Below, piece by piece: positions 683 to 33,665 of a DNA stretch of 64,000 nt. Each line of letters starts with the position of its first letter. Within the stretch, counting starts at the first letter, position 1. Origin of the DNA: Heterostelium album PN500 (lineage: Eukaryota > Evosea > Eumycetozoa > Acytosteliales > Acytosteliaceae); NCBI RefSeq assembly GCF_000004825.1, contig NW_008805073.1:930001-994000 (forward strand), in the 5' to 3' direction. The translations under genes were made by a program, and so were the position numbers. Under the pieces are notes generated by a model. That model made no database searches. It worked only from the letters and a program-made list of their open reading frames with translations, and was not told where the DNA came from.

Positions 683-1017
683 TTAAAATATAAAAATAAA
701 TAAATAAAAATTTTAATTCTAAATGATTTTTCATTTTATTGGTTGGGTTTTTTTTTTTCTTAGTATTCTCACATTATTTTACAAAAAGCACACAAATTTT
801 TTTTCTTTTTGGGGAGGCTTAAAATGAAATTAAACAATTTTGAAGGTTTAGTGAAGTATTATAAAATCTAATTCATATTTAAGTATTAAATAAATTGAAA
901 TAAATTTTGTTTTAAATCAAATTTTAACACTAACAAAAACCAATAGGTATTTATTTATTTTTAAATTTTATTTTGTTATTAATCTATATTTTTAATTTTT
1001 TTAAAGATCTCAAGTCA
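683..1017. other. AT-rich spacer
   Basis: Follows the stop of copy A. It has an AATAAA-like stretch just after the stop and T/A homopolymers. No coding signal is seen. Confidence 0.6.
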
Positions 1018-8246: not shown

Positions 8247-8762
8247 GAATGTTAGTTTACAAAAATAAAAACAGTTCCAGCACCCCTTCTAAAGGAAATC
8301 ACATCATACCAAAAAAACATCATTTTTTTAAAAGTTAATTATTTCATTTGTTTTTCCTCCCCCAAATAATGAAACCTCCCAACTCCTTCCACTAGTGAGA
8401 AAAACAAAAAAAAACAGACATATCAAACCACACTTTAAAAAAAAAACTTTTTTGTATGCCGACAAGTTGAGATTATAAAAATAGTTGCATAATAATTCAT
8501 CTCGAAAGTCAAAAAATAAATTTAAAAATAAAAATGGGATTCTATTTTTATAACTTTTGCTATGATTAAATTAAATAATAGACCAAAAATCAAAAACATC
8601 TCCCACTTTTTGATCAGAATTTTAAGTTTTGCAAATAATTAATGTTTGCACATTTGATTGCAAATTTCATTAATTAATTCAAACTATTTTATATTTTTCT
8701 TTAAATAACTAAAACTAATTATTTTTAATTTTTGTAAGTAAATTTTATCTAAAAAGTTAATA

Positions 8763-11700: not shown

Positions 11701-14700
11701 AAAAACGTTTATATTCAATTCAAAGAGATCTCTCAGCTCTAAAATATGAACAAGTTGCTCAAAATCTCACATGGATAATCAAAATGTGTTCAAACTCCTT
11801 ATTTCAACAGAAATTAGGAACCAAAGTGAACAATAATAAAGAAGAACTTTCTAAGATTCTGAAACAAATAATAGATATTGCCGAAAAATCATCCAGTTCT
11901 ATTAAAGAATCGTTAAAAACCGATAATCTTAAAATGTCTGATATCGATCACTATTATTCGATCAAAACACATTTGTCAACATTCATCAATCATTTCCAAC
12001 AAATAGATAACAAATTGATTGAATCATTGGAATCATATTTCGATTCATTCCGCCAAATTTCGAACAACATTGAGAGTTGGAAGAAAGGAGTTATCGAATT
12101 TAATACAGTATCACTTTTAATGTCCAAACTTAGCACTCTAGAAGGATGTCAAACTGAATTTTCTTCTTGTTCAAATTTGGGTCTAAAAATACCTACTCAT
12201 TCAAGTTTAATGGATCAATTGAAACTATGTTTGAAAGATCTTATAAATACATTTCAATTTGGTTTAGAAACACAAGCTTATCATAAATGTCGAAGCACAA
12301 TTCTACTTGTTATCAAATTAGTTGATCATGAACTTGTGGAAAGAAACGACTATGAGTTGTTGATTCAAAAAGTAGAAATTCACAAGAATGGGTTATTTGA
12401 TAAAGCAGAGCAATATTTGGATAGAAATGATCCAATGAATTATCAAGTGATTGCATCAGAAGTGAACTATTTGAATGATTTTTTCAAGCAAATTCCTAAG
12501 GTAAAATCCCAAAGTTTTTGTCATTTAATCCTTTCGCTTGGTCATAAACATATTGAAGAATTATCAAATAATTGGCAAACCAAAGATCTGAACTCTCTAA
12601 TTTCAATTTTAAAAGAATTTAAAAAATTCTCCACTAACTGCATACTTCTCAGAGAACATGCTAACACCAATATTGCAATGATTTTAGATCAATACATTGA
12701 AACAAATGGATTAGAAAAGTTTCAACTTTTGGGAAAAGAGCTTGAAAGTTCAGGTTCTTTAGGAAAAGAAATCATTTCTGAATTCAAACAATTCCAGTCA
12801 TATTCTATTTCAATGTGGAATTCAAGATCACCAAAATTAAATCTTGTATTTGAATACATCTTAAAGAATATGACAGGAGATGAAATTTCAATGGATATTT
12901 TGAAATCAAGTTATGATTCTTTCTCGATAAAACATCAGGAAATGGTTGATAAATTAAAGGTCAATAAATATCAAGATGTTCTCAAGGAAATTGTATCAAA
13001 CTCAAAGAAACTTTCTCTCAGAATTCCAAAGTATATGGATTTGGAAACATCAAGAGAGGATGTCATCAATTTATTGGCTCATATTTTCGCAATATGGACA
13101 ATTTCAAAATCAGGTGAATCATATGTCGCTCTCAAATTTGATCCAAATGTATTACTTCGTCCTCATCATTTTCAGGTATTGGCAATTATGAGACTTCTTG
13201 GAATTGACAAACATGTTTCTCTGATGAAAAAGACACCAACTTTAAATTTAATAGGTGTTATTCCTGATAGTATACCGTTAGACAATCATCTCATTGAAAT
13301 ATTGACTGGTGAAGGAAAATCAATCACACTTGCTGTTCTCAGTATTATACTTTCACTTCTTGGATTCAAAGTATCATGTGTTTCATACAGTGAATACCTT
13401 TCAAAACGAGACTTTTCTTCATTTGTAGATATCTTTGAACTCTTTGGAGTCACTGATATGATTACTTATTCAACATTTGGTGAACTTTGTGAATCTTTGA
13501 TCTCTGAAGGAGGTGATGTCAGAGCTCTTACAGATAACTTAATTCACAACTCTTTGGCCCCTGTCCATTCTCAAATATCACAAAGCTCAAGAATTCTTTT
13601 GATTGATGAAGTCGATCTATTCTTTGGTGATTCATTCTATGGTAAAACATATAATCCAGCAACTACCCTTCACTCTTCATCAATAGTTAAGCTATATGAA
13701 TATATTTGGAATAATAGAAAGAATATTAAATTTGCAACTCTTTCGAAACAAATTGAATACAAGAATGTTATTTCAGAATTCCCAGGATATGAAAAGCTTC
13801 TTTCTCTAAAGATATCAGAAATGGTAGAGGATGTCAACAACTATAAAAATACAGAATATGAAGTTGATAATGTTAATAAGAGAATTGGATATAGAAATCA
13901 TGATGGAATTTCATTTACACACGAACATGGATCGAAAACAGCATTTGCTTACATAGATGCTTTTGGTATTAACAAAGAAGATGATAAAACCGATAAAGAT
14001 GAGAAAACCAAAAAAGAGGAGATAGCAAAATTTGAAAATTTTAAGAGAAAAAATCTTAAAATAACAATAACATGTGGTGGTTGGTCATATGCAAACATTC
14101 CTTCTAAATTTGAAAGAATTCTTGGAGTAACTGGAACTTTGAAGACACTCACTCCAACTTTAATGAAAATAATCAAAGATGAATTCAAGATCAACAAATT
14201 TACATTCACACCTTCAATCTTTGATGAAACAAAACTCGATTTCAAAGAACATGATCATGTTTTTATAGAAAAAGATAAAGATCATTGGTATCTAAAGATT
14301 GCTGAAGATATCCTTGAGAAGACAAAGAAAGAAAGAGCTGTCATTGTTGTCTTTGAAGATGAAAAGACTTTGAACGATTTTGAAACCTCACATTATTTCG
14401 GTCAAGTTGAGAAGAGTTCGAAATTAGTTGAAAGTACAACAGACAGAGATACAGTGATCAAGAAAGCAACAACATCAAGACAAGTAACACTCATAACAAG
14501 ATCATTTGGTCGTGGTGTTGATTTCATTGTCAATGATGATAAAGTGATTGCTAATGGAGGTGTTCATGTCATTCAAACATTCCTTTCAGAAGAGATCACC
14601 GAAGAAATTCAAATCAAAGGAAGAACCGCTCGTCAAGGTCAGAAAGGATCATACAAGATGATTCTCCTCAAATCAGATCTTATCAAGATGGGAATGACAG

Positions 14701-14930
14701 AGAAATGGCTTGAAGATGAAAAAAAGAGAGATGGATTCTACAAGTCAATCGATGAGAAACGTCAAAAATTGTATTCTTCTAAATGTGAGAAACTCAAAAA
14801 GGTTGTCAATGGTGCCAAAGAACGTGATTCAGAATCGAACAAATATTTAAGTTTGCTTTCCAATTATAGTGAATCCAAGAAATCCGAAATATTAAAAATA
14901 TTGTTTGAATTTAATAATAAGAATAAATAA
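8763..14930 (+). CDS. GTPase-like/helical/SecA-like ATPase giant protein (copy D), start codon and GTPase motifs lost
   Basis: A 2,055-codon frame without stops. Homology to copy E puts the start at TTG 8763, where E has ATG, and a conserved intron at 8824-8880 (57 nt, GTAAAT...TTTTAG) that is in frame. The first in-frame ATG is at 9000. Residues ~60-300 match the GTPase-like domain of copy E, but the P-loop reads LLLGTGSVKT instead of GRTGAGKT and the DTPG motif is gone. Residues ~300-1450 are helical, Ser/Asn/Lys/Glu-rich. The motor has Walker A LTGEGKS (residues 1516-1520), Walker B LIDEVDLFFGD (DEVD from 1615), GVTGTLKT, FGRGVDFIVND (~1913) and IKGRTARQGQKG (~1951), the SecA DEAD order. 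It may be a recent pseudogene, or a motor translated from an internal ATG. The role is unknown; conserved motor residues suggest an ATP-driven translocase or unfoldase. Confidence 0.75.
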   Translation: MSHKRIHGSSKRFFKNNLVQGKLFTFWKFLFYLLILNILDLIKEGDYPCIVNFLQISKTLSIINGKDIHLLLGTGSVKTMITHYLCGENMITAASGIGEGKFVKKSKITIKKRKLILIHFIPGSTSGNEKISGKEVISYKITSNNELIITLDDQVPAIDLSIAIGVTKVIHSSKSVRPIIVLDKNTITSVGGSELGQILDYLPILIENIQGSFGSFSVLFTDFDSCKPEIENYNSIKDSFIQQIQIENQKNPNSNRATLLRFIFKGVENKIDNLNHGGQPEEGLYVKIVNPINTNAVQDILSMVHSRPPIENLSQVFKYNISTSSQTNIGNEIETLQDKINLEGGNYKLTAEYLDLIKSIAKYIDVNSLKVSYKDSLVIVIKHYNELCSDVKSYLIGALNPSGSLSIEQLDSHLSAIKLIYHLMKQRDSEEKTHFTNDIQSYDNVIQCLLQITIDCENSLNTIMSFSVLKDQIYKLCSLSDFNDVFTFVKSSAINSLSNRIQHLIDDANYEIRSHNWENSYNSCQSIRQSICIQEFIKIQIENEVQTLISSINKIIEISSEFINQILSSEGEISTQDLDSIPVHWKIIQTSSSFKPLRELINIEIKEVYYNPIVESIVTFTEIYNLSDVVDCTNYLRNISMLINMDANIKDRTFNSLLEKQKNIKIKIDSLKDEVYSSLNINSDQNKLECVFNNLSKIKELSQLDQYFSQPHGMKTYVEAIEEIIIFIEKVKKEISDSFTSNNHKLSNTLSQTIYCLVRQIEFGQNVSQEELKLIDCIENTKNLFKNLVSNICISFKSDDSTNGLWSTLSKQLEILGIFKHNQIFSSKLLITTFETKIVKYCCTLLEELEIYLSKNDYKSACGSLNQFQEAQTFNNIEPIVNNQYLLVKSTTMTSIYYFVLKMKSLIDDFKFKEFKTLKPQLNSLVDLEHYYPSINSKVQEINNQYRKYKDINFNIKNGYFSFLTEIDHPTMKILQEKSQKRLYSIQRDLSALKYEQVAQNLTWIIKMCSNSLFQQKLGTKVNNNKEELSKILKQIIDIAEKSSSSIKESLKTDNLKMSDIDHYYSIKTHLSTFINHFQQIDNKLIESLESYFDSFRQISNNIESWKKGVIEFNTVSLLMSKLSTLEGCQTEFSSCSNLGLKIPTHSSLMDQLKLCLKDLINTFQFGLETQAYHKCRSTILLVIKLVDHELVERNDYELLIQKVEIHKNGLFDKAEQYLDRNDPMNYQVIASEVNYLNDFFKQIPKVKSQSFCHLILSLGHKHIEELSNNWQTKDLNSLISILKEFKKFSTNCILLREHANTNIAMILDQYIETNGLEKFQLLGKELESSGSLGKEIISEFKQFQSYSISMWNSRSPKLNLVFEYILKNMTGDEISMDILKSSYDSFSIKHQEMVDKLKVNKYQDVLKEIVSNSKKLSLRIPKYMDLETSREDVINLLAHIFAIWTISKSGESYVALKFDPNVLLRPHHFQVLAIMRLLGIDKHVSLMKKTPTLNLIGVIPDSIPLDNHLIEILTGEGKSITLAVLSIILSLLGFKVSCVSYSEYLSKRDFSSFVDIFELFGVTDMITYSTFGELCESLISEGGDVRALTDNLIHNSLAPVHSQISQSSRILLIDEVDLFFGDSFYGKTYNPATTLHSSSIVKLYEYIWNNRKNIKFATLSKQIEYKNVISEFPGYEKLLSLKISEMVEDVNNYKNTEYEVDNVNKRIGYRNHDGISFTHEHGSKTAFAYIDAFGINKEDDKTDKDEKTKKEEIAKFENFKRKNLKITITCGGWSYANIPSKFERILGVTGTLKTLTPTLMKIIKDEFKINKFTFTPSIFDETKLDFKEHDHVFIEKDKDHWYLKIAEDILEKTKKERAVIVVFEDEKTLNDFETSHYFGQVEKSSKLVESTTDRDTVIKKATTSRQVTLITRSFGRGVDFIVNDDKVIANGGVHVIQTFLSEEITEEIQIKGRTARQGQKGSYKMILLKSDLIKMGMTEKWLEDEKKRDGFYKSIDEKRQKLYSSKCEKLKKVVNGAKERDSESNKYLSLLSNYSESKKSEILKILFEFNNKNK

Positions 14931-17183
14931 TTTTGTTTATATAAAGTTTGTTTACAGATTTATTTTATTATAATTATTAACATATTGTAAACAGACAGTA
15001 CTAGTTTCGTTTTGAATTAAAAGATATAGTAAAGTCAATAGAAAAGTTTATTCTTAGTCCTACAACAAGTCAACAAAGATAACCGAAATATCTTTGTTCT
15101 AGGTAAACATAACATTGGAGGCAATAACCTACGACCATATTAGAATGAAAGAAATCTTATAAACTGTGACTGCTCTTATTTTGATCTATTCAATACATTT
15201 CGAGATTGATGCAACCACCCTAGAGCACTATGGCACATTAACGACATACATCCATCAAGGATAGAGAGTCTGTCTTTCTAGTGGTCGGGCTGCTTAACCA
15301 GTGCGATGATGTCGGGTACCTGAATGTGTTATTGTCGATCTCGGAGATTGAAGCTGGTGGTTGCTATGATGTTATTATTGTTGTTGCTGTGAGACTCTTT
15401 GTACTGACATTGAAGTCACCAACAACAAGAATGTCAGAAGTCGGTTGTAAAGTGTTATTGACTTCTGAAGCTAGATGCTGAACGTCTGTGCTACTAGCTG
15501 TTTATGTGTTATTTGTTTATTATTAAGATTGATTATTGTTATCCTCTGCCAATCATAGATGAGTATGACACTTCGGTTAGAGTAACTGGATCGTTGACTG
15601 TCCAATCCGTTCAATTACTACCATGTCACTCTGTCTGTATTAGTGAAGAACAGCAGCTTTACATATACTTATCACGGCCTACTCAACCAGTTAGCTATCT
15701 CTGGTACGTTCGAACTACCCAGAGATATAATTCAATTGCAGTGCCAACTTCATGATCAATTCAACACACCTGGTTGTGAGACGTTAACTCCATAGATTCT
15801 ATATAAGGGCAATGTCATCTTTATGGTGATAAATAAACGAATTATTAAGATATTATTTAATGCAAACAATCAATACAATATAGTATATACACATTACTTA
15901 CAATCTACAATAAATATCCGAACCTTTAGATGCCCTGGCTAAATTTAAGTTGGACCAAATTCAAGTTTAGTATCTTCACTAATCATCCTCTGATAATTTT
16001 ATTTGTATTGTTAAATATATTTTAAATTTGAAAGCTATGTTGAAAGAAAAGAAAAGTTTGTAAATCTATTAAATGTTAAACATAAGGTTGATTGAACTCT
16101 AGGATTATAAAGATTTGTCAAGAAATTGTAATTAATTTTCCATTAATGAGTTATATGTTTAAAATAAATAATGAATATTACTGATATGACTTTACTAAAT
16201 GAAACTTAAGTGAGTATTTATAGATTTATTTTTAACAAATATTAAAATTATTAAAAAATTAAATTTAATTAATTTTTTTTTTTTTTCTTTTTTCAGGCAA
16301 AAATGATTTACATCAATCTTTGCAAAAAAATTGGGGGTGTGTTGTTTTTCACAAGCTATTTGTTTAAGTGTTTTTTTTTTAACAAAAAATTTTCGCTGTG
16401 AATTCAAATTACATACACATATTGATTTTAGATAATAAACAACAAGAAATAAATAATTAATAAATATAAAAATTGAATTTTAATAATAAAAGAGATGTTC
16501 TATTAACTATATAAGATAAAAAGATTTTTTTTTTTTTATTTTCAAAGAGATCTCTATGCCAAGTTCTTATATTTATTATTTTTTATTTTCTAAATTTTTT
16601 ATTCATTCAATAACTCAGTTTCTATGTTCTACAACTTAATAATTTTGATTAACTTGAGGTATCCTTTGAACCCCATAATAAATAAACAGCTATCATAGAC
16701 ATTATGTCTCTTTAAATTTGAAAATTTTTTTCTGAAACTAAATTTGCACTTTGTTTATTTTTGATCAAAAATCAGAATATTAATTAAGTGGTTTTTTTTT
16801 AAATTAAACAAAAGTTTTCTAAAGAAATATTCACTTCTTTTTTTTTTGGGGAGATCTTTATTATGACTCATTTTTTCATCATGGTGAAGGTTTCTCTGTG
16901 AAACAAAAAAAACAAATTAAACTTAAATTTACACTTTCTTTATTAAAATCAAAGGATTGTTATTATTTAAAATTTAAAGTTTAAAAATATTGAATTTAGA
17001 GTTGATTAGTTCAACAATTTTAATCACTAGTAAATTAGTTTTTAAATTTTATTTTTTTTTTATTTGTAATAATAGATTAAATTAATTTAAGTTAATTTTT
17101 TGTAAGTATTTGATTTTTAAATAAAGAGGTCCTCCTTTACAAAAATTAATAAATGTTTTTTTTTAAAAAACAAAAGTTAGAAT
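14931..17183. other. Gene-free stretch with a retroelement relic
   Basis: Bases 15240-15780 are less AT-rich and include an antisense coding remnant (listed separately). From 15800 to 17183 the DNA is AT-rich with many homopolymers and no coding signal. The last part is the presumed promoter of copy E. Confidence 0.55.
15281..15500 (-). mobile_element. Probable non-LTR retrotransposon endonuclease relic
   Basis: On the minus strand, roughly 15490 to 15370 reads HLASEVNN, then PTSDILVVGDFNVS. An ILVVGDFN motif preceded by such a helix is typical of the AP-type endonuclease (exonuclease/endonuclease/phosphatase fold) of LINE-like elements such as the dictyostelid TREs. Frames upstream and downstream are broken by stops, so only a dead fragment remains. 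The call rests on one motif and its context; an unrelated degenerate gene is possible. Confidence 0.45.
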
Positions 17184-20100
17184 ATGGGTTCAATTTCAAT
17201 CGAAGATAAAGAAATTGTTGGTGAATATAACACTGATCTTTTTTGTAATAACAACAATCTGGTTCCAGGTATTTATTTCTACAATTTTTTTAATATATCC
17301 AAAAAATAATATTTATTTTAATTTTTTATAATATTTAGATAAGAATGTAAATGATTTTTACAATGAGAGTATTGATATGTTGTTAAAAACCATTTCCAAA
17401 GCTATTGAAGCTTCTTACATTACAAATGATCAAATTATCAATTTGCTATTGGGAAGAACTGGTGCTGGAAAGACAACGATCACTCATTATCTCTGTGGAG
17501 AGAAAATGGTACTTAAAGATGTGGTTACGGTGGTCGATATTGAAGGTACCAAAGACACCATTGTCGAAAAGAAAATAGATGTTGAAGATCCCAATGTCAA
17601 AGGAGGTTCCATCTGCCATGAAAAGAAATCTGGAACCAAACTAATGTCCTGTAAATCCACTCATGATGGTGAGATCTTTGCTGATACTCCAGGAGAATTG
17701 GATGATCAAGGTCCTGCCGCTGATCTTGCTCATTCAATTGGTGTAACCAAAGGAATCCATTGTGCCAAAGGAGTCCGTCCAGTAATTGTACTTGACAAAG
17801 ATACAATTACATCAGTTAGAGGACCTGAGTTTGACCAAATTCTGGATTTCTCATCAAATCTAATTGAGAATATTCAAGATAGATTGAATTCATTTTCATT
17901 CTTATTCACTCATTTCGATTGTAGTAAACCAGAGGTTGAAAACTATGAATTAATCAAAACTAATATACTCAAACAAGCCAAATATGAAAAGGAGAAGGAT
18001 CCTAATAACAATAGAGTTAAACTTCTCAATTTCATTTACTTTGGTATCTCTGGTAAAATTGATTTGCTTAAGGTTGGTGCTCAAACTGAAGGTTCCTACG
18101 TTCACATTGTAAATCCACTCAATCCAGAGGCCATCCCTGACATTCTATCAATGATTAAGAGTCGTCAACCAATTGAGAATCCAAGTCAAGTATTCAAATA
18201 CAACATATCTAATGCTTCAAGTATATTCATTGATCATCAATGTGTATCTCTCCAATTCAAAATCAGTCAATCCATTGAGAGAGGAAACTATTCTCAAGCT
18301 GCTGAATGTTTGGATTTAATCAAACTGTTGGAAAACAGACTGGGTTTAAAATCATTAAAAGAATCTTACAAAGTATCACAAGAAGAAATAACCACACATT
18401 ACAACCAACTTTGTTCTGATGTCAAATTATATCTTGCTGATGTTCTGAAACCAGCCTGTTCTCTTTCAATGGAACAATTGGTCCCACGTTTATCATCAAT
18501 TAAATTCATTTATCATCTCATGAAACAAAGAGATTCAGAAGAGAAAACACATTTTACAAATAACAATGAATCATATGATCATGTCATTCAATGTCTCTTG
18601 CAAATTTCAAATGATTGTGAAAGTTCATTCAATACAATCATGTCTTTCTCTGTTCTCAAAGATCAAATCGATAAACTCTGTTCACTTTCAAAATTCAATG
18701 ATCTATTCACACCTGTCAAATCAAATGCAATACAATCATTGACAAAGAGAATAATATATCTAATTGATGATCATCAAATCAAATCAAAAACACTTTTCTT
18801 ATTTTTTTTGCAAAGTTCTAAAAATGAAGTTTTGTTTTTTCATGGCAAATATTAATATTCATACAGAATAATGTATCTATCGTCTCTCTCTCTCAGATAG
18901 AGCTATTTATTATTGTTTATGTGTTAACCAAATTGAATTAGATTATTTTTATTTTTTTTTTTGATGTTATATCATCTTATAAAATAAATTGTTGATTAAT
19001 ACGAGCACTCTGACCAGATGGATACAAAAGAACCAACAACTTATTTAAAAGTTGTTTTCCAGCTTCCTCGTTGCGGATTGTAATTATTGGGAATGAACAG
19101 GGTATCTCTTTCTTTGCAATTTCGATATCTGAGGGAGGGAATTGTTCATTATCGAGCAGTGTTTTCAATTTATCAAAAACACTTTCGATTATAGTCCATC
19201 GGTTGACACCCTCATCAAGATCTCGCTTGTTGCCATATGGGAAAATAAGTTGATATTTGGTAGATAGTAACTCATCACATTCATCGAGAATGTTAAACAA
19301 ATTATTGTTTGACCATTGAATGATAGAGTTGAATAGGGTCTTTGATTTAGAGAGCATAGATGAGTTTTGGAATGAAAGCCAATGATCAGGTGTTGAAATG
19401 ATGATTCCTTGATTAGTTTTGCAGTGTTTGAGATTGCTAAGTATTCTCTGAAATTGAATATCATTCAATTGAGAGACAATATCTCTTCTAAATGGATAGA
19501 CGTGAATGGGACGATTGAAAATAGATGATCCCATTGTCAAGAGCATGTCTTCAATCGATGTTTCCAAGAGCGATGGTAACACATTGATTCTGGCAATGCG
19601 ATCTTTCAATGCCAAACACATTATCGGAATGATCACCGATGTTTTGCCTTCACCCATTTGAAGTTGAATACAACGGTTGTTTTCCGTAGAGTTCAACAAT
19701 TCCATTGCTATTTCCACTTGAATATCATAGATCCAAATGTTTCTTTCCAATTCAAACAGTGCCCAATGAGGATGATCTGAAACACTCCACTTTCTTGTCC
19801 TTGGTTTGGCTTGTTGGATAATCAACATAATCAATGAAATCCTTATAGATATTAACAGGATTACATTGTTTCCAGAGTCCACATTTAATGAATGACGATA
19901 GTTTTGTCCAATTCGAATTGTATATTGATTCAATTTGACTCCATACCAATGTTTTGGCATCGTTGATCTCTTTGTACAATTGAGAAAGTGTTTCTTCAAT
20001 ATATTGTTGGTCTACCAATTCATAAGTTGGTGTTGATTCAATGTGTGAAATCAAATGGTCCTTTGACTTTTCCAATTCATCATAGAAAATAGAACCAATC

Positions 20101-23100
20101 TTTGTTGACTCTTCGTGATCGAGTAGCTGATCGAGTTGGTCAGAAATTGTATATTTCTCTTGTTTCTCTACGAGACATAATGCCAAATAATCTTCTATTT
20201 CGGGGTCATATCCTATTTTGAAAAGATTAGACAATCGTTCATCGATTTCAATTTGGAAATCATTATCCTTCCAATCGATCTTATCGTTTGACTTGCTGTA
20301 TCGAATGATTTTTGGTTTGATATTAAGAATTGATGAGAGTATTGGTGGTGTTTGTGAGTTTAGTGAATCTGGTTTGAATGATATCTTTTGTAACGATTTC
20401 AAGAATATGAATAGTCTGTAGTTTCTTTGCCAACTCTTGAATTCTTCTTGATATTTAATAAACTGTGTTGGTAGTTCACTAACTTCAAGTTTAGGAACTT
20501 TAATCAATTCATATTCTTGAAAGAGTGAATTCCAGGCAGGATCACTCGAGATCTGTTTGTGTGTAATGTGGGGGCTTGTGTGGATAACAGCTTCTGGAAA
20601 TGGTATCATTTTGAATTGTTCTTCATTTGTTGAATCTGGAATTGAGAGATAGATGATGTGGTCAAATAAAGAATGATTGGAGCTAGGTTTCAGAGCAATT
20701 AAGTTTTGGAATGTAAGAAAAAGAATTAACTTTGAGAAAGGTTGTTGTTTCAATCTAATACTCTTTGCCAAATTAAGAAGTGACATGTAGAAAGACGAGA
20801 TTGTGATAGCTGGAAAATCCATAACATTTCTATCAGGTATTCTAAATAATCGAGCATCGAATATTCCCAATATTTCCGAAGTAAAATTGTCAGAGGTGAA
20901 AATGAAAGATTTAGTTGATCTTTGTTGAGTGTTGGGTTGGACATTATCTTTGCAACTCTGGTTGTATAGTTTAGAATATCTGAAGGTGGTTTGGGAATGA
21001 TATTGGTCTCAATAGGCTTGTTATAATCAACTTTTAAACTAGAATATTTTGCATTTGAGGAGAGTACTCTCTGATTTCTCCAACAACTGGCAGCATTAAT
21101 TGAATTTTCTTGTTGAAAAGTTGTGACTGTTTGTGTCAGTGGTTCTGATTGTTGTTTGGATTTATCACTAACTTCATAGAGAAATTGACATTCTTGATTG
21201 TGAGAGATGACACTGCTGACCAACATATTAATAAAGTCATGACAAACAAATCCCGGGATCAATGGATATTTATATTCAACTTCTTGGAATGCATTGTGTT
21301 CTTTAGTTGAAAATAATTTTCGGGTTGGTGAGATTGATTGTATTCTTTTGAGGATAGCGATAGACTGAGTGGTGAACAATCGATTGGTTTGGAATCTTTG
21401 AAGCAATGTAACAGCCATATCGAAACCAGTTTGACCGAGGAATGGATCTGGCATGGTTGAAGATGTCATCAAGTGGAGATATGCAAGGTAAAGATTGGAT
21501 GTGATCTCTTGGGGAGTCAACACTTTTATATTATCATCTATTTTATATCGGAAATATGATGGAGTATCCAGACTGTTAACATCAGCTTGACAAACTTGAT
21601 AATCTTTGAAATCCATATCACCTTGTTCAACTGATAATATTGAATGTGGTGTCAAAACAATCTTTTCTTTGGTATGGTTATTCTCCAACAGCAAATAGTT
21701 TGATAATCCAACCATTGTTCCCATGTATTGATTATCACAAATCGTAAATGAGCGTGAATAAGTGATTGTTCCTTCTTTGGCATCTTCTATGATTTCAAAC
21801 AACAGATCTTTGTGTTGAACGAGTTGTATTATAATTTTTGAATGTGTTTTCCAAACAAGAATATTCTCTGGTGAATCAATTTTGAAAACGGTATGGAGAT
21901 GAGATTCCAGTTGACCATCCATTGTTGTCTTTAAATTCACCAATTCGTTGGTTGTATTGAATTGAACAATGATACCATCAATATTTCCACTGAACTTTGG
22001 TTCAAATTTATCAAAGAATTTGTTGATTTGTTTTGGTCTGAACTCTATGCTGTCATCATACTTCTTCCACAGAGTATACTCTTTGGTCAATGATTTTGGC
22101 AAGTCTTTCAACAATTCACTTGGAATTAAATCAAAAGTGTCGCCACCATCTTGTATTTCTTTGACTTGTAAATGACCATTGGGTGTCAATTGTAATTCAT
22201 AATTCCTATCTTTAATCTTTATCACACTGTCATGTTAAATTAAATATTATTATTAACAAAATTAACTAATTTAAAAGTTCATTAAAATTACTTACTATCT
22301 AGATTTCATAAACTTAACTGAAAATTTTGTGTTGGCAAATAACATGATAAAATCAGGTTTAGATGAGATATTGTTTGGAAGTTGGTGACTTGACGATCCA
22401 TTAAAAATGATATTTCCATTGTTGATATTCAATTGAATTGCATCATTGATATCATATTGACAATACCAAAGGTGTGAATCTTTCAGTTGTTTCCATTCCA
22501 TAAATGCATTCGGTTCATTGAAACAAGGTTCATTCATCATGATATAGTTGGAAAGTACTGTTGGTGATTTAGAAATGATCGATTGTATCGCTGGAATCAT
22601 CTTGAATGTAATGACACTACATCTATGCAACAAACTGATATTAATAATGGAATTAGGAAATTCAATATTCTTAAACTTTTCAAAAAGAATATAGTTTGAT
22701 TTAAGATGAAAATAGAAATCGTTGTGACCCAATTCATCTTGATCCTCTCCAATTGTGAGTGATTCCATTGATAGAATTAGCGCCATTGAAGTGAAAACCA
22801 GTTGTGTGTCTTGAATCTGAGAATTAGAGTCAAGACTATTGTTATCTTTGTAGAGGAGTCTCATCCATTCTTTGGCTTTGGTACGACACTCATATATCAA
22901 GCGTTTGACATCTATATTAAGTACAAGCAAGTTAGAATCAATTAACCATGACGATAACAATGAGAGAAGTTGAACAAAGAAAACCAATGAATATTGATCT
23001 TCAGAGGATAGTGATGTAATTCTTTCTTTGATGACCTCAAGCAGAGTCTGAACGAATTGTACATCTTCGAAAACACCTTTTGAAAATCGACCTTGTTCAC

Positions 23101-26100
23101 AATCCTCACCAATTTGGTAGATCATATTGTTGAATGACACAAATGTATTAAGATCAATGATTGTGTTGTGATTTTCGAGGAATTTGAGAATATTCAACAT
23201 AAAGATAGTCTCACTGTGCGATTGCAAAGATCCAAAGTTTAGAAATTGGAGTTTGGAACTGCAGTGTATCGCCTTGATAGACTGGTCTGTAAGAACTGTA
23301 TTCTCTGTTGTTTTGCCATCACAATATTTCTGAAGAGCATGCACTTCCCTCACCTCTGGTTTGACAGGTATACTGTATTTAAAGAGAATTGGTTTGTCAG
23401 CTTTTTTTAATGGTAAAGGTTGGTTAATATTAGGATTTGATATTGGATTTTAAAAATAAAATAATTGAATCAACATACGTTGACGGAATCTAAGATTAGA
23501 CTTTCCAATTTTATAGTAGTCAATACAACGTTTTCTCCTCACTTCTGAAAAGTTTGAGAAATCGAAAATTTTATAAATACATTGGCCATTGAAAGATCTG
23601 TTCAATTTCAAATCGGTAAAAGATTTGAAAGGTAAAGAATCGCCACCAATGAAATCAGATCACACAATTGGGAGAACTCCTTAAATTCGATCATTTCGCT
23701 TCAACAAACAATCTTTATTCAAGAGTTTATCAAAATCCCAATTCAATCTGAAATCCAAATTTGTATTAGTTCTATTGTCAAAATTCTCGATTCATCTTTT
23801 CAATTTATCAATCAAATATTGTGCAGAGATGGAGAGATTTCACTCAATGATTTAGAGAGAATCAAAGAACACTGGTTGATCATTCAAACATCATCTTCAT
23901 TCACACTACTCAGTAAATTGTTGGAAATCAAAATTGAAGAAGTTTATTATTCTCCAATTATTGATTTAATTGCCAAATATACAAATGACATCCTTAATAA
24001 TCTAACTGATCCAAATATTTTGGTGTTTTCACTCCAAAAGGTTTCCCAACTCCAAAATTTAGATTCAAATATCAATGATCAAACTTCTAATTCCTATCGA
24101 TTAGCACTTCGAACAATTAATCATAGAGTTACATCAATGAAGGAAAATATTATTTTATCACTCAATACAAATTGTGATCAATATGTTCTTCAAAAAGTAT
24201 TCAAACAGCTTTGTGAAATCAAACTACTTTATCCTTTGGATTCATATTTTTCAGAACCTATCTGTAAGAATAGTTATCTCCAAACGATTGAAGAAATTCG
24301 TATTTTCATTAAAAATGTTGAAGATTTAATTGTAGATTCAATCACTCATAATGAATATAAATTTTCAAATTCATTCTCACAATCAATTCATTTTCTAACC
24401 AGATACTTTATATTTGGTGAGAATGCATCCGAAGAAGAACAACAACTAATTATATGTATTCAAAATACTAAGGATCATATTAAGGATTTAGTTTCAAATA
24501 TTGTTATCTTCAATCTGGATAATATCACAAATGGACATTGGTCAACACTTTCCAAACAACTTCAAACTCTTGAAATATTCAAATATAATCAGATTTGTTC
24601 CACTTCTTCTACAATTAAGACCATAGAATCAAAGATTGTAGAACATTCTACAACTATTTGGGAACAAACATCAAAGTATTTATCATTGAATGATTATAAA
24701 TCAGCTTATGATGGTCTAAATCAACTTCAACGAGCACAGAAATTTGATAATATCAAATCAATAATCAGTGAAGATAGATATTCTGAAATAGAAGAAACAC
24801 TTCGTCGTTCTGTTACCAATTTTCTTTCAAAGATGAGATCGTTCATTGACAATGAGAAATTTAATGAATTCAGAACTCTTCAACCACAACTCAACTGTTT
24901 GGTCGATCTTGAGAATCCTTCAATCAACACTTTTGTTATTGATATTAATACCCAATTTAGAGAGTCTCAGAATGATATGCTAAGATCGTTGGATGGTAAG
25001 ATTAATTCAAGAGATTTCTCAGGTCTCAAAGACAGTTATCAAAATCTTCCAGAAGACTCGAAAGTTCGACTTCTCAGTCATATTATAGAAGTTATTAGAC
25101 AGGACGAACAAAAGATAATGGGAATAATAGGTCAAATCGAACAAATGAAGTTGAATGATGAATTTTCAAAATCATTATCAACATTCCATCGGGCATCAAT
25201 TTTTTCATCAATTCTCCCACAAGAATTTAATTTTGAGAGAAGATTGAAAGCTATAGAAGTTTCGATCATCAAACAGATTAAACTTGTTGTTGTCACCCTC
25301 AAAACCTCAGTAACAAATCATGATTTCAATTCAATCCATCAATACTCCAACTATATCAGAACTCTATGTCAACAATTAAGATATTGTTTATCTAATGGAG
25401 ATCAAATCACTGAAATATTGCAACAAGTGGAATCAATTGTCACCGAATCACTTGTCAATATTAATGAAAAGATGTTTGAAGATCTAAAGAGATTTTCAGT
25501 AACTACTATCATTGATAGTTTAAAGAAAGTTAAAAACAACACTTTATTTGATCTTAAACTTTTACAAATTGAGAACTTTTTCTCCTCTCATATTGTAAAG
25601 AAATCAGAATCCATTAAAAAGATGATAAAGAATGGTCTTATCTTGGAAGCCAAAGCTGAAGTAAAAAATATTGAAATTGAAATTCAATCAATTTCGAAAT
25701 TTATATCAACCACTGAAGCATTTTCAAAACTTGAAGAATTGAAGAGTTTTCTTTCAGAATCAGAAATATTAAGATTAAAGAATATTACTACGATAATCAA
25801 ATCTGGAAATTTCGAAACTATTGTTGAAACAGATTTGGATACTCAAACTGTAGAGAAACTTAAAGAAGAGACTCTTAATCGAAAATCTTCAATTCAAAAA
25901 GATCTTTCTCCACCTCCGAGATTTGAACAAGTGGCTGTGGATCTCAATTGGCTTATCAATATGTGTTCCAACTCTATCATTCCAAAGAAATTAGGAATTT
26001 CTCATCAAAATGATATTGATAAATTTAAGAAAAAAATCTTAGAAATTGTTAGAAGTACTGTCAATAATATCGCTGAGAATCTAAAGTGTGATAATATTCA

Positions 26101-29043
26101 AAATATTAACATCGATCACTATTATTTAATCAAAACTCATTTATCACAGTTCATCAAAGATTTCAATGTAATTGATAAACAATTGATTGAATCAATGAAA
26201 TCATATTTCAAAACATTCTCTGATATTATTTCAAGAAACATTGATAATTGGAAGAAAGATATAATTCCATTTGAAAAGAATGCAATTTCAGATCTTCATT
26301 CGAAACTCAACACCCTCAGAAACAGTGATATTTCCTTTTCTTCATGTTTATCTTTGGTAGGAAAAATTCCAACCTATTCAGTTTCTATTCATGAGTTGAA
26401 ATCAGAGATTCAAGCTCGTATGCTATCATTTTCACCCGATTTGGATAGTTCAAAATATGAGAAATCAGCATCCACCATTCTTCTAGTTTATGAAGTTTAT
26501 AATCAATTAAACACTCATAATATTGTATCAAGTAAAGATCATCCTCTATTAATTGGAATTTTACATACCCATATGGAAATGTTAATAAAAGCTGCAAATG
26601 AATATTGGAACTGTGATGATCTTGGATCTTTCAATCAAACTGCAAAAAGAGCCACTGATTTTCAAAATCATTTCAATCAAAATAGATTTCCTCAAGTAAA
26701 CTCTAACTTTTTTGGTTCAATCGATTGTTTTTGTAGCTAAAAAACATATCGAAGAATCATCAAGCCAATTGCATAAGAAAGATATCATTGTTATTGCTCA
26801 AGGTCTGATTAAATTAAAGGACTATTCCGATAGATCTCCACTTCTCAAAGATTGTGTTAATATAAATATTAAACGAGTATTGGATCTTTATATTAATATC
26901 AATGGATTAGGAAATATTCAACAACTTGGGAAGGAACTTGAAATCTCTGGTCGTCTCGGAAAAGAAATCATTTCTGAATTTAATCAATTCGCTTCATATT
27001 CAATTTCAATGTGGAACACAAGATCATCAAATTTAACTTTAGATTACATCTTGGAAAACATGACAGGTGATGAAATTTCAAAGGAACTTTTGAAATCTAG
27101 TTATAATTCATTCTTGATTCAGTATCAGACAATTGTGGAAAGAGAAGTACACAAATATCAAAATGCTCCAAAGAACATTCTAGCAAAAGCCAATCTTATT
27201 ATTGCCAAAATTGATACTAATATGGAATCAGAAGCATCAAGAGTAAATGTCATCAGTTTGTTGGCTCATATTTTTGCAATGTGGACTGTCGTAAAATCTG
27301 GTGAATCATATGTTGCTCTTAAAAAAGATGCAAATGTATTACTTCGTCCTCATCATGCTCAAGTATTGGCAATTATGAGACTTCTTGGAATCGATAATAA
27401 AGAATCTTGGTTGAAAAAGAAATTTGGAAGGACTACCAGATCACCATTAGATAATCATCTCATTGAAATATTGACTGGTGAAGGAAAATCAATCACACTT
27501 GCAGTTCTCAGTATTCTTCTATCAAGTATTGGATGTCAGGTTTCATGTGTTTCATATAGCGCATATCTATAGAAACGAGATTATACAGCATTTAAAGATA
27601 TCTTTTCACTTTTTAACGTGACTGACAAGATTACCTATTCAACCTTTAGCGATCTTTGTAACAGTTTGATCGAAGAAGAAGGTGATGTTAGAACTCTTAC
27701 AAATCAATTCATTAACAACAAACTAAAACCATCTTTTAAATCAAAGTCAGAAAAACCTACAAGAATTCTTTTGATCGATGAAGTAGATGTATTCTTTGGT
27801 GATTCATTCTATGGTAAAACATATAATCCATCAACTTCTATTCAATCATTTTCAATTATTCAACTAGTTGAATACATTTGGAAGAATCGTAAGAACATTA
27901 CAATTTCTACCATCTCTAACCAAAATGAATACAAGAAAGTAATGGCTGAGTTCTCTGGACATGAAACAATTCTTTCTCAGAAGATTTTCTCTATGGTTAG
28001 AGATGTCAACAGCTACAATATTCCAGCTTATGAAGTTGATAAAGTAAACCAGAGAATTGGATATCGTGATCAAGATGGTATTTCATTTACAACAACCTAC
28101 GGATCAAAAACAGCATTTGCATACATTGCTGAATATGAACTTGGTAATATCACAGAAGAGGTTATGAAGAATAAATCTTAGACTCTCAATTGTTTGTGGT
28201 CATTGGTCATTTGCAAACATTCCATTCAAATTCGAAAGAATTCTTGGAGTTACTGGAACTTTGAAGACACTCACACCATCTTTAATGAAAATCATCAAAG
28301 ATGATTTCAAGATCAGCAAATATACATTCACACCTTCTATCTTTGGTAAAACACAACTAGATTTCAAAGAACAAGATCATGTTTTGATGGAAGAGAACAA
28401 AGATCTTTGGTACAGAAAGATTGCTGAAGATATCCTTGAGAAGACAAAGAAAGAAAGATCTGTCATTGTTGTCTTTGAAGATGAAAAGACTTTGAACGAT
28501 TTTGAAACCTCACATTATTTCGGTCAAGTTGAGAAGAGTTCGAAATTAGTTGAAAGTACAACAGACAGAGATACAGTGATCAAGAAAGCTACAACATCAA
28601 AACAAGTAACACTCATAACAAAATCATTTGGTCGTGGTGTTGATTTCATTGTCAATGATGATAAAGTGATTGATAATGGAGGTGTTCATGTCATTCAAAC
28701 ATTCCTTTCAGAGGAGATCACAGAAGAAGTCCAAATCAAAGGAAGAACCGCTCGTCAAGGTCAGAAAGGATCATACAAGATGATTCTTTTGAAATATGAT
28801 CTAGTTTGTATGGGAATGACTTCAGAGAGTCTTGGCAATGCCATTAAGGGTAATGGATTCTACAAAATGATTGATGAGAAACGTCAGAATTCATTCTCTG
28901 CAAAATGTGAGAAACAAAAAAATGTTGTAAATAAGTCAAACGATCTAGACAACGAATCAAACAAGTATTTGAATTTACTTTTGAATTATGACGATTCAAA
29001 GAAATCTGAAATTTCAAAACTTTTAGAACAATTTAATAAATAA
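17184..29043 (+). pseudogene. GTPase-SecA-like giant gene (copy E), split by inserted DNA and broken
   Basis: ATG at 17184; exon 1 17184-17268, intron 17269-17338, exon 2 from 17339. The N-terminal GTPase domain is intact: G1 GRTGAGKT (~17455), G3 ADTPG (~17685) and a THFD-like G4 (~17910), resembling AIG1/septin-like P-loop GTPases. Homology stops at about 18774 (codons for LIDD) and resumes in frame at about 23642 (TNEIRSHNWEN). The ~4.87 kb between carries an antisense DUF3638 gene piece. Downstream breaks are a one-base insertion near 26710-26725, a TAG at 27570-27572 where copy D has TCA, and a frameshift near 28170-28180. Walker A (LTGEGKS, ~27475), Walker B (LIDEVDVFFGD, ~27772) and motifs V/VI (28630-28770) survive. 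Only the first ~530 codons could make an intact product. Confidence 0.85.
18977..23641 (-). pseudogene. Internal segment of a DUF3638/DUF3645-type giant ATPase gene
   Basis: Read from 23641 to 18977. A first coding block runs to about 23480 (IYKIFDFSNFSEVRRKRC), then the frame to 22296, an intron 22295-22227 (GTAAGT...ACAG, joining as SRYVIKIKDRN), and coding blocks to ~20890, ~19815 and 18977. Signature motifs are HPHWALFELERNIWIYDIQ, LQMGEGKTSVIIP (Walker A-like, ~19640) and NILDECDELLSTKYQL (Walker B-like, ~19270), which are hallmarks of the DUF3638/DUF3645 proteins, normally ~3,000 residues. No start codon or N-terminus is present, the C-terminal third is missing, and the frame changes near 20890 and 19815. 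The retained intron means the piece arrived as DNA, not as a processed transcript. It sits inside copy E. Function unknown. Confidence 0.75.
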
Positions 29044-29122
29044 ATGTATTGTTTTTAATATTAATCCTATTGATACTTTGTTTGGATGAAACCGGAATGA
29101 ATTTCTTTATTAATTTTTATGA

Positions 29123-32100
29123 TTAGTGTTGTTCACATTTTAAAATATGTTGAATGTTTTTGTGGATAATTGATTCGTTGATATACGGACATGAATATCC
29201 ATGACATTCAAGAATAGTATTAGTTGTATTATTGTTATCGATTGGATATTGTGAAAGTGTTGGTATCATCTTATTGAACGCGTTAAACATTGGTTGTAAT
29301 GGGTTGTTTGTTTGCGCCAATAAAAGTTCAGTCCACCTTGGAAGACTTATCATTTCAATAGGATAAACTTTGTTCATTGATAAGCAAAAATCATTGAATG
29401 TGATTGATTTCTGATTTGTCAACAAGAATGTTGGTGTCATATCATTGTTATCAGCGTCATTCCATGATCTATTCAAGGAAATATTGATTATTGACGATGA
29501 AACCCAATCAACTGGTGACAGATTCAAAAGGTTTACCTTTTCATTGGAAAGATCGGGATAGTATCCAAGATGTAATATTCCAGACAATACCAATCTAATG
29601 AAATCATTTGAATTATCAACACCTGTTTCTGTATGGCTATAGATGACACCTGGCCTGAAAATAATGATTGGGAATCCTCTTTGGTATGCTTTATGAATGA
29701 GTTGCTCGGCAATCAATTTCGATTGTGAGTATCCTGACATTGAATTCAAATTGTTTAAACTTGGTTGTTTGGTGTCATCGATTTCTTGATTGAATTGGTG
29801 GAATGTTCCAATTGTGGAAATATGTGAAACTGGTATGATATGGTCTCCAATTGTAGATAGTCTTAATACTTCCTCAGTGCCTTTAACATTTGCCATTTTC
29901 ATATTTGAATATGGATTCATCAAGTGAACATATGCACCATTATGAATGATAAGATCGGTTTGATTTGAAAGATCAATGAATTCATTGATATTCAATCCGA
30001 ATAATGGTAATTCTAAATCACCAATGATTGGATAAATTTTTGAAATTTCATTTTCTTTGATCATCATATTATTCTTTAATCTGATGATCTCAACCAATTT
30101 ACTTCTTGCATCTGATTGTGAACCTGATGATCTTATCAAACAAAATACTTTTGAAATATTTTGATTTCTAATGAGATCATACAATAAGAATGAACCATTG
30201 AATCCAGTTGCACCAGTCAAGAATATATTGTTAAATCCACTTGATTTCATTGATTTTCCATTGGTTTGAATTGAATCATCCAATTTCATTTCATCTTCCC
30301 AATTGATTTCATTGTTTTTGATAATATTCTTGAAGATATCAATTAAATTGACATTCTTATCTAAAATTTGCTGAGGTTTAACATCTATTTTCGCTTTATC
30401 TTTGAGAAGATTTGATAGTTTAACAGCGCCAATTGAATCTCCTCCTATTTGTGAAAATGATAACTTTGATAAATCCATATCAGATATATTATCTAAATCA
30501 AGTCCCAGAACTGATTTAAGATAATTAAACAACAGATTTGTTTTATCATTGGATTCTGATGAAAGACCATCTTGGATCGAATTCAAAGTGTTATACATCG
30601 ATTCGATATCTTCTTTATAATATTTATCAAGGTGTGGTCTGCTGGGTTTACCAGTGGGCGTTAATAGTTTATTATCTATATTCCAATTTGTATGGTCAAG
30701 AGTGATAATCTTTGGAATTTCATAATTTGAACTCTATAATAAATAAATAGATTTAATTCAATTAATTAATAATTTGTTTGGGTAGATATAAGAAATAAAA
30801 ATAATAACCTTGTTTAATTGAGAAATTCTTTCAAAATCATCAAGTATTAATCTTTTCAATTGATTATTATCTTTGAAATTATTATCGTTTGAATTGATCT
30901 TATCCAAAGCAAATTGAGATGGAATAACAATTGCAACTAAAAATGATTGACTAAGGTCACCATAAACATAGATATTCTTGATTAATGGTGAGTTTAAATA
31001 AAGTAATTCAATAACCTCAGTACTATTTAAAATGTAATAATTAATAAAAATGTATATTAATAAATTTATATTTAAATTAAGTTACCAACATACCTAACGA
31101 ATTCACCATTCATCAATTTGAATGAATTCTTCTTTCTATCTATAACTCTGACTGATCTTGGTGCATATTCTTCAACGATATCACCAGTGTAATACCAACC
31201 ATCTTTAAATACTAGATCTGTAGCTGCCTTGTCTTTATAATATCCAACCGATACCTTGTTCGAACAAACAACTAGTTCACCTCTTGGGTATGGTTTATCA
31301 TTTATTGTGAATCCCAATTCTGGAACTGATTCCAATCGGTATTCAGTATTTGCAACTACTCTCTCATTCAGAGCTATGGCCATCGTCTCGGTGGAACCAT
31401 ATAGATTATAAATGCCTATACCTTTCCAGCATTCTTTTAGAAAATCGGTAACAACTTTTGGCTGATTTGCACTAAAATAAACAATATTGGAGATACGATC
31501 ACCGAGTATAGTTTTAAATTGATCTATAACATTTGAAGTGCAATGTTCCAACGATAATTCAGTGTGATCCGAAATATATGATTTTAAAGTAGATTCATAA
31601 TTTGAATAAATAACTTTAAAAACTCTAATTAATTGAATTAAAAATATTAGTAAATATTAACTATAAAAATGTAATATTTTAAAATTGATTTTACCTTGGA
31701 ACAGCACTAAAATATTGTGGTCTAATTGCTTTTACAAAATCAAAGAGGTAATCGAAATCACCAGAATACATTCCAATTCTACCACCAAACATTAAATTAT
31801 TATAATCGAATTTTCTCTGTATATGTGCTATTTTGAAATAATTATTATTAGTAAAGATAAGATGATTCCAAAAAAATTAGAAATGTATTAATAAATCAAT
31901 ACCTAGAGTTAAAAAACTAATCTCTACTCTTGGATATGGTAAAAATCTCTCATTTATAAATCCCAAGAAATCTCTATTCGATGAAATCACACCTTTTGGA
32001 AGACCAGTAGAACCAGAAGAATATGCTATTTTTTTAAAAAAGTATAGAAATAATAATAATTAGATTTTATATAGCTATTTAAAATATGGTAAATAAAAAT

Positions 32101-33166
32101 ACATACACAATGATATTATATCAAGTTTACCTTTAGATGGTGGGGTTATTTCTGCTACGGACAACATCTCTGAAAATAATTTAAAGATAACATTGGACGG
32201 TAATTTATTTCTTAATTCTTGGTCAAAATCATCATCCACATGAATAATCAATTGAATATTGACGTCATCCTTTGACTCGATTAATTCAACAATGTTTTTA
32301 AATGAATTACGATCTACAACCATCACAGTGGTATCAGAACTTTTCAAAACAGAATAGAGAATCTCTTGATCTAAAGATTTTTACTATTAGAATTTGACTC
32401 CAAATATTATTAATTCTAACAAAGCAGACTTACTTGATTGATAATGAAAAGGAACAGTAACCATTCCATACCAAAGACATGCCAAATCTGTAAAATACCA
32501 TTCTGGAATATTGGGTAAAAAATACCAATAAAAGTTTCCTAAACAAAATATTATCATTTTAAATCAAACAATTAATTTAGCAGAAGGTTAAATTTAAAAA
32601 AAAAATTCTTTTTAAATTAGTATTACTTGTGGAACGATTTTAAGAAGTGAAGTTCCAAATTTTGTAGCACTTTCATAAACATCTTGATATGTTAACCATT
32701 TAATTTTCATTTCAGATGATTTCATTGGAGATTTAGCATCTAAATGACCCAAACACAATCTATTTTTAAATGTTTCAAATACATTGCTAAAAAAAAATAA
32801 AGATTAATAATAAAAACTCATTTACAATTCAAAGTTTTAATGATTGAGAAACCTACAGTGAAGTTTGGAAGAGGGTGTCTGCTCTATGACGTAAAAAGTA
32901 TTCCTGGTTGACATCTGTAAAAATGGAAAAATAGGTGTTAAATTATTTTTATAATGATTTTAGTTTTTTTTGTATTTACATTTTTCAATTGTACAATAAT
33001 GAGGAAGAGGGGCAGTATCTGTATGAACAGAGATAGAATGTGATTTTGGGTAACATTCTAAACAGATTGTAAGATCAATGCATTCCGAACAAACATATCT
33101 TTCCTGACCAGAGATAATAGTGTTTGAGCAAACTTTACAATTTTTATCAAAATTATTATTAATCAT
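29123..33166 (-). CDS. ZZ-type zinc finger + adenylation + carrier + thioester reductase (carboxylic acid reductase-like)
   Basis: Ten exons by splice motifs: 33166-32980, 32914-32857, 32786-32627, 32538-32434, 32370-32107, 32025-31903, 31827-31695, 31624-31094, 31022-30809, 30733-29123 (~1,128 aa). Exon 1 encodes a ZZ-like zinc finger (repeated CxxC, then H-x5-H). Next is an AMP-forming acyl-adenylation domain (SSGSTGLPKG, YGSTET, WYYTGD, LTPTGKPSR), a carrier domain with the phosphopantetheine Ser in GGDSIGA, and an NAD(P)-binding reductase (TGATGFNGSF, GYSQSK with YxxxK). This order predicts ATP-dependent activation of an acid, thioester formation, and reductive release as aldehyde or alcohol; the substrate is unknown. 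The exon 3/4 join is one base short of keeping frame, so there may be a sequence error or a lesion there. The zinc finger is unusual for this family. Confidence 0.82.
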
Positions 33167-33665
33167 AGAGTTTGTTTTTTTTTATAAAAAATTAATAATT
33201 AATTTGTATTTGTTATTAAAATATAAGTATTTTAAAATAATGATGTTAAAACAACAAAACTCAACAAGTTAGTCTATATATTGATTTGTTTTAAAAAAAA
33301 AAAAAACAAACATAAGTAATTTTTTAATTGGGAAACAAACAACACCGATAAATTTTGATTTATGAAAAAACACTACAAATAAAAAAGTGGTGGTATTATA
33401 TATTTTTTGAATATAAATCAAATAACAAATAACCACAAGTGTCCTGTTCAACCTTTTTATAAATTAAACAAATGTCGCCTTAAAAAAAAAAAATAATAAT
33501 TGGGCCACCCTTTAGGTTTTAAATTAATGTTTGTATAAAAGTAAAATACACGTGGGTTGATATCTATCTAGATTTGATTGTAGTCGCACTATATAATGAG
33601 ACCAGTAAGCTAACTAAAACAATGTGTTAGTTATTTTATCAAAAACTGTTTATTATTTTTTAATT

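Follow-up and report, generated by a model that had tools for sequence, protein, structure and literature searches.

SecA is taught as the export motor of bacteria and plastids, and the locus described here raises the question of what such a motor is, and what it may do, when an amoeba encodes it behind a GTPase. The locus lies in a stretch of 64,000 nucleotides of Heterostelium album PN500 (NW_008805073.1, positions 930,001 to 994,000; hereafter the window), which is part of contig C12 in a genome of 32.9 Mb and 39 contigs. Its genes stand in a tandem array that has partly decayed, and they code for proteins in which a GTPase domain is joined through a long arm to a SecA-type motor (GTPase-arm-SecA). 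An earlier interpretation made from the letters alone (the sequence-only reading) had described one such gene from two pieces, D and E. The array has four copies, A, B, C and D/E, with the following parts in the window:

2–682, plus strand: 3' end of copy A, coding for nucleotide-binding domain 2 (NBD2) of the motor; the remaining intact gene lies upstream, at C12 ~923667–930682 (L008).
1015–2961, plus strand: copy B, decayed arm and motor fragments, located by tblastn and blastn with copy A.
8742–14930, plus strand: copy C, an open frame of 2,062 amino acids (aa) with a degenerate GTPase, a shortened arm and a complete motor.
17184–17268, plus strand: first exon of copy D with its ATG at 17184, placed by eye; copy A is built alike.
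17269–17338, plus strand: GT-AG intron of copy D, placed by eye.
17339–18786, plus strand: GTPase domain and start of the arm of copy D.
23647–26707, plus strand: arm of copy E.
26700–29043, plus strand: end of the arm and SecA-type motor of copy E, in two frames with one in-frame stop.

Copy A encodes GTPase, arm and motor in a single frame that spans 2,308 codons between stops, with the GTPase at residues ~60–320, an arm of ~1,400 residues and the motor at ~1740–2308. The open frame of copy D (17332–18855) contains GRTGAGKT (~17452–17475), DTPG (~17683–17694; both positions counted by hand) and THFD, while copy E (23636–29043) contains LTGEGKS, LIDEVDVFFGD, GVTGT, GRGVDFIVND and GRTARQG, so all motifs named in the sequence-only reading are present and in SecA order. 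Since D aligns with residues 1–508 of copy A and E with residues 511–2308, the two are halves of one gene, and the single architecture proposed for them is borne out by the fusion seen in one frame in copy A. That GTPase and motor are separate genes joined by an error of assembly or annotation is barely conceivable: foreign DNA does separate D from E in the window, but copy A and five bacterial frames of 2,792–3,464 aa bear both ends, and separate genes were rejected at the DNA level. Copy E carries frame breaks near 26707 and near 28170 and a TAG stop at 27570–27572, and these lesions, together with the insert between D and E, mark D/E as assembled as a broken copy. Copies A and D have in common a short first exon and a GT-AG intron, both seen by eye, which gives them the look of nuclear genes and not of bacterial contamination. 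A search of the genome with the GTPase domain of copy A gave three matches, namely copies A, C and D.

The identity of the motor was examined by sequence and by predicted fold. All distinct PDB matches of the copy A sequence at E <=1 were SecA (17/17, best 7e-6), which excludes chance for the motor, and a four-row motor profile likewise matched only SecA at E <=0.1 (24/24, best 4e-16). Copy A reached Pfam SecA_DEAD with 34.2 bits (cut-off 24.6); P-loop_SecA scored 22.1 in the whole copy, below its cut-off of 27, and was above the cut-off in the E piece 28168–29043 and in window positions 2–682. The copy C motor was modelled from a 62-row alignment, made of three pieces from the window and 59 of the 79 loci that had been located, with a mean predicted local distance difference test value (pLDDT) of 76.5. 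Among the 50 Foldseek matches listed for this model, rows 1–36 were SecA at E <1e-11, followed by DinG and DEAD-box helicases, including DDX21, at E 2e-7 and higher. The motor is thus a SecA-family motor by sequence and predicted fold, as the sequence-only reading had proposed, and not an ordinary helicase. A nucleic-acid helicase of the ordinary kind, placed behind an unrelated GTPase, would have in its favor those later Foldseek rows and weak Pfam Helicase_C matches (0.003–0.009, below cut-off), but the SecA-only PDB matches and the SecA-led Foldseek result make it highly improbable, and it was rejected. Neither an ordinary helicase family for the C-terminal part nor a separate transcript for the GTPase end, which the sequence-only reading had named as evidence that would tell against it, was found at the DNA level.

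The Walker A motif TGEGKS, the DExD motif and the arginines of GR..R were invariant in five aligned amoeba motors. The spacing from DEVD to xTGT was 156 residues in copy A and 173 in copy C, compared with a median of 162 and a range of 162–229 in the reference, that is, in the 33 of 74 other SecA-type loci where the patterns caught all motifs; the insert between these motifs is about as long as the preprotein-clamp domain and so is nearly kept. The residues following NBD2 in SecA make up the helical wing, the two-helix finger and the C-tail. Past GR..R, copy A has 99 residues versus a median of 251 in the reference loci, the copy C model closes with a long helix and a short one, and the motor is without the part of SecA that holds these elements. 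Overall, the copy A family is like canonical SecA and SecA2 (PF07517, PF21090) in its DEAD motor, NBD1, clamp-sized insert, NBD2, motif order and fold; it differs in standing outside the canonical clade, in its fusion to a GTPase and an arm, and in missing both the post-NBD2 residues and a match to SecA_PP_bind.

The GTPase domain was more difficult to place. Copy D matched no Pfam GTPase family at its cut-off. The sequence-only reading had called the domain AIG1-like, and this could not be maintained: AIG1 (PF04548) was listed only below the cut-off, in two bacterial members (L124 and L115) and for none of copies A, C and D, and AIG1 membership was rejected. Dynamin_N also stayed below its cut-off in bacterial members. 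A low-confidence model (pLDDT 60) gave GM4951 and RNF112 (E <=0.001) as the top Foldseek matches, then IRGB10 and mitofusin, at template modelling (TM) scores of ~0.2, whereas EngB, at rank 8, reached a TM score of 0.54 over its own length. The best fold matches are of the type of immunity-related GTPases (IRGs) and dynamins, and EngB. The sequence profile gave mixed P-loop proteins in the PDB, including Der, septins, EngB and GIMAP4. The domain resembles the IRG, dynamin, GIMAP and septin families in its P-loop, its DxPG motif and the order of a G domain followed by helices; it differs in scoring below all family cut-offs and in having a long arm and a motor downstream. The arm is predicted to be helical in two modelled stretches, partly at low confidence, and is poor in proline (1.7%) and glycine (2.4%); its helical nature as first described holds in these stretches, but not its length of ~1,100 residues, which is ~1,400 in copy A.

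An important question was whether this layout is restricted to eukaryotes. A scan of prokaryote genomes (84,980 species), with the best 80 of 188 relatives kept, gave two metagenome-assembled genomes that stood out among the matches listed, one of Chlamydiae (L016, E 7e-76) and one of Gammaproteobacteria (L017, E 5e-52). The follow-up search used a profile of copies A and C, L016 and L017, with only the best candidates scored. Of 232 genomes from the phylum of L016, 4 had strong matches (E <1e-120; 7 of 232 at 1e-20), as did 3 of 369 genomes sampled from the class of L017, itself included (E 4e-78 or lower). In comparison, strong matches were absent from the 143 genomes of the Legionella genome's order (three weaker, best 5.5e-31 in L117) and from the 291 genomes drawn from the order of L019 (three weaker, best 3.5e-23). 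Seven bacterial genomes, four of Chlamydiota and three gammaproteobacterial, thus have the same motor subfamily, and the GTPase was present in all six members that could be read there: complete in L017, L114, L115, L124 and L123/L126, and from just ahead of DTPG in L016. In the seventh, L116, the contig ends directly ahead of the motor. The five complete members are the single frames mentioned above. The description as a eukaryotic gene family consequently does not hold, the layout being the same in Chlamydiota and Gammaproteobacteria.

The bacterial members vary outside the shared layout. The Chlamydiota member L115 has ~1,490–1,500 residues ahead of the GTPase, and this part (L115:3427-7900) showed weak SidM_N (1.7e-4) and leucine-rich repeat matches, both below the cut-off. 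Near the C-terminus of L017 (~12500–13180), a stretch resembling a von Willebrand factor A domain was seen by eye, with no Pfam match. The neighboring genes of L017 look ordinarily bacterial on reading. The GTPase family itself occurs in 27 of 232 Chlamydiota genomes (E <=1e-10), in some of them in several copies; outside the three SecA fusions the listed sites lie in frames of 202–2,469 aa, none of which is at a listed motor match, weaker motors in these frames not having been the aim of any search.

The amoeba and bacterial GTPases are homologous, to judge from their profile alignment by hhalign (probability 99.7%, E 4.7e-26, 264 columns) and from a shuffle test in which the real score exceeded all 300 shuffles for five of six targets; for L114, 3 of 300 shuffles reached the score. 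By BLAST, residues 1284–2308 of copy A align with residues 2278–3322 of L115, including a stretch ahead of the motor.

Phylogenetic analysis was done with two sets of motors. Tree 1 had 44 hand-picked rows (43 of the 109 extracted and L124). Tree 2 had 37 rows, with L124 dropped for its long branch, three plasmid rows added, and L030, L043, L058, L059, L060, L062, L072, L091 and L103 left out for a shorter run; both trees were built without L117, whose Walker A pattern was unmatched, and without the broken copy E. In both, a non-canonical SecA clade separate from canonical SecA and, within it, the GTPase-type subclade received support of 100/100. The non-canonical clade has three subclades, and in each a single lineage from the amoeba, of the GTPase, the lectin or the ankyrin type, stands amid bacterial ones. 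L052 and L091 stood nearest to the non-canonical clade at 68/36 in the 44-row tree, and L052 alone at 99/95 in the 37-row tree. On the strength of sequence comparison, GTPase-arm-SecA is a distinct subfamily of non-canonical SecA that is also present in Chlamydiota and Gammaproteobacteria. A movement of the family between amoebae and bacteria is supported but short of proof. As to its direction, in trees whose eukaryotic sampling was confined to this amoeba, the amoeba pair fell within the bacterial members at only 86/79 and 68/48, and forcing the bacterial members into one clade with the amoeba outside was not rejected (approximately unbiased test, AU p 0.060). The possible acquisition from bacteria considered earlier gains support from the occurrence of the same layout in bacteria.

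The genome has further motors of this kind. A search with SecA_DEAD gave seven matches: besides copies A, C and E, there was a single one on C5, and C17 had three, which belong to two genes. The C5 protein (L010) has ankyrin repeats, with PF00023 barely above the cut-off. The two C17 genes (L011, L012) have legume-lectin-like matches barely below the cut-off, and their laminin G matches pass the cut-off in one gene but fall short of it in the second; in one of them, the lectin-like and laminin G matches lie in an adjoining, overlapping frame. Both types have bacterial kin of their own: for C5 these are Legionella moravica (38% identity, 3e-104), a second genome from the same order and genomes of Chlamydiota, and for C17 they are Amoebophilaceae and other Bacteroidota, a Legionella-order genome, a Legionella geestiana plasmid and two Rickettsiales plasmids. 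Plasmids of Candidatus Megaera polyxenophila (L127) and Candidatus Bandiella woodruffii (L128), endosymbionts from a Euplotes culture, carry very long SecA-domain genes, that of Megaera being ~15.7 kb. Viral contigs, scanned four times, yielded no relative. Among phage records there were weak or SecA-like matches, 2 with copy A and 25 with the C5 motor, several of the records looking like bacterial contigs, and 10 plasmid records, three of which were inspected, weakly match copy A.

The preferred reading, to which we give a probability of about one half, is that GTPase-arm-SecA works as a soluble ATPase that threads polypeptides independently of SecY, has its GTPase as a switch or targeting device, and operates between the amoeba and intracellular bacteria. 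The motor would thread or unfold polypeptides without SecY; the GTPase would be a switch, or a module for membrane targeting and assembly; and the arm would be a spacer that delivers the motor to the substrate, probably at a bacteria-containing compartment. The bacterial version might be a host-directed effector and the amoeba version a co-opted or defence protein. A more specific form, a GTP-gated SecY-independent machine for translocation or unfolding that amoebae and their intracellular bacteria have exchanged and that either side employs at the symbiont or pathogen compartment, is decidedly tentative.

IRGs act at bacterial vacuoles, and a defence role, which the earlier interpretation had also considered, may be inferred for the GTPase-SecA protein. 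In a purely host-side version, a GTPase of the IRG/dynamin type would mark the vacuoles of bacteria and the SecA motor would remodel or extract proteins there. The top fold matches of the GTPase fit this, as do the other N-termini of the remaining SecA motors of the genome (ankyrin in one type, lectin-like and laminin G in the other), which have the pattern of swapped sensor domains, and tandem duplication with decay suits fast-evolving defence genes. However, the GTPase model has the low pLDDT and TM values given above, with EngB matching better over its own length, and bacteria with the same layout are left unexplained by an origin purely on the side of the host. This version is possible but unlikely.

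Several observations weigh against the threading ATPase. Of the four copies, A alone looks intact. In copy C, Walker A is altered and DTPG lost while the motor is retained, so the GTPase may be dispensable, and in the bacterial member L124 Walker A is altered to SGQGKS and the GR..R motif is absent. The clamp-sized insert of copy A is slightly shorter than in all 33 reference loci, and the Pfam domain for SecA cross-linking (SecA_PP_bind) was matched in the ankyrin-type paralogue and unmatched in copy A. Of the 33 reference loci, 15 also have fewer than 150 residues past GR..R, being short secondary SecAs or cut by the end of a contig; the short C-terminus is therefore not peculiar to the family, and the contrast is with full-length SecA. 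Homology of the amoeba and bacterial arms was not found by hhalign (probability 0.5% and 0.2% with profiles of two to three rows). Finally, we infer the polypeptide substrate from kinship with SecA alone.

The state of the copies also bears on whether the genes serve the amoeba at all. That they are acquired symbiont genes now decaying without a role would be consistent with the fragmentation of copy B, the insert and three lesions of D/E and the degenerate GTPase of copy C. On the other hand, copy A is open over its whole frame and shares its GT-AG intron with copy D, and the ratios of nonsynonymous to synonymous divergence (dN/dS, by Nei-Gojobori, values without a significance test) between A and D/E are low. 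They were 0.25 in the GTPase and 0.28 in the arm for A versus D, 0.28 in the arm and 0.22–0.38 across three motor pieces for A versus E, and 0.38–0.45 for A versus C. These values suggest purifying selection on the proteins over much of the time since they separated, and a decay of genes that serve no purpose is accordingly improbable. The dS was 0.27–0.45 in the motor versus 0.63–0.78 in the GTPase and arm, the lower motor values suggesting gene conversion.

Parts of this picture have precedents. SecA-domain proteins in insects, Tetrahymena and Polysphondylium pallidum were reported in 2013, together with exchange involving Wolbachia (wBol1_1091/1092) and Amoebophilus (Aasi_1610/1144) (PMC3639933). 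As described there, these eukaryotic-type SecA proteins share with the present family the long SecA-domain genes, a clade apart from prokaryotic SecA, and exchange between eukaryotes and intracellular bacteria; they differ in that the section of that paper on them does not mention a GTPase, and the present trees were built without the insect and Wolbachia sequences. Secondary SecA_DEAD proteins, whose genes adjoin type I secretion genes, are, like the present motor, SecA-type motors outside the Sec pathway in the account of PMC4452313, whose main text has no occurrence of the word GTPase. L052 and L091 may be secondary SecA_DEAD proteins of this type; their frames of 715 and 851 aa are too short for the GTPase-arm-SecA layout. 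The effector repertoire of Amoebophilus has SecA-like domains along with GTPase domains of the GIMAP type (PMC3482391), and giant actinobacterial toxins have SecA-like domains (PMC8195603); in the relevant passages of these papers the domains are named separately, not as a GTPase-SecA fusion. Phage WO has SecA-like genes (PMC5062602), and a SecA DEAD-like protein of Legionella fallonii is among tabulated eukaryotic-like proteins (PMC4256840). A full-text literature search, which covered few subscription papers and no bioRxiv preprints, found no earlier report of a GTPase-SecA fusion.

Apart from the copies themselves, the array includes an insert and is bordered by duplicated DNA, with these features:

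18787–23646, no strand assigned: insert splitting the D/E gene.
18977–23449, minus strand: four antisense open reading frames (ORFs) inside the insert.
29123–30733, minus strand: NAD_binding_4/PP-binding gene, with a near-copy (86% aa identity) upstream of copy A.

The insert is ~4.86 kb long. Its ORF at 18977–20011 matches DUF3638 (E 3e-60), and the other three had zero matches in a Pfam search; the four probably form one DUF3638 gene or pseudogene. Part of the insert (19057–19802) is 84% identical to C12 1352164–1352912, ~400 kb off on the same contig, and its left edge (18763–18990) is 96% identical to C12 706081–706315. Because pieces of it match other places on C12, the insert likely came from a duplication or an inserted element, and it could be a duplicated pseudogene or an element's passenger; a comparison of its edges found no shared string longer than 6 bases. 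No RNA family reached its gathering threshold in window positions 16000–30000. Over ~4 kb 3' of copy E (29124–33191), three pieces show 67–80% identity to DNA upstream of copy A. Duplicated DNA, including the NAD_binding_4 gene, thus brackets the array, which looks like a segmental duplication.

Overall, the locus presents a SecA motor in an amoeba described as plastid-less, off the export channel and behind a GTPase. Since Chlamydiota and Gammaproteobacteria share the layout, and two more amoeba SecA types have bacterial kin of their own, it makes a testable case that SecA motors have become an all-purpose device where amoebae and their bacteria meet, and it suggests a little-known machine common to microbes and amoebae. 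An intact copy A and the signs of purifying selection would make a role of SecA outside Sec accessible to amoeba genetics.

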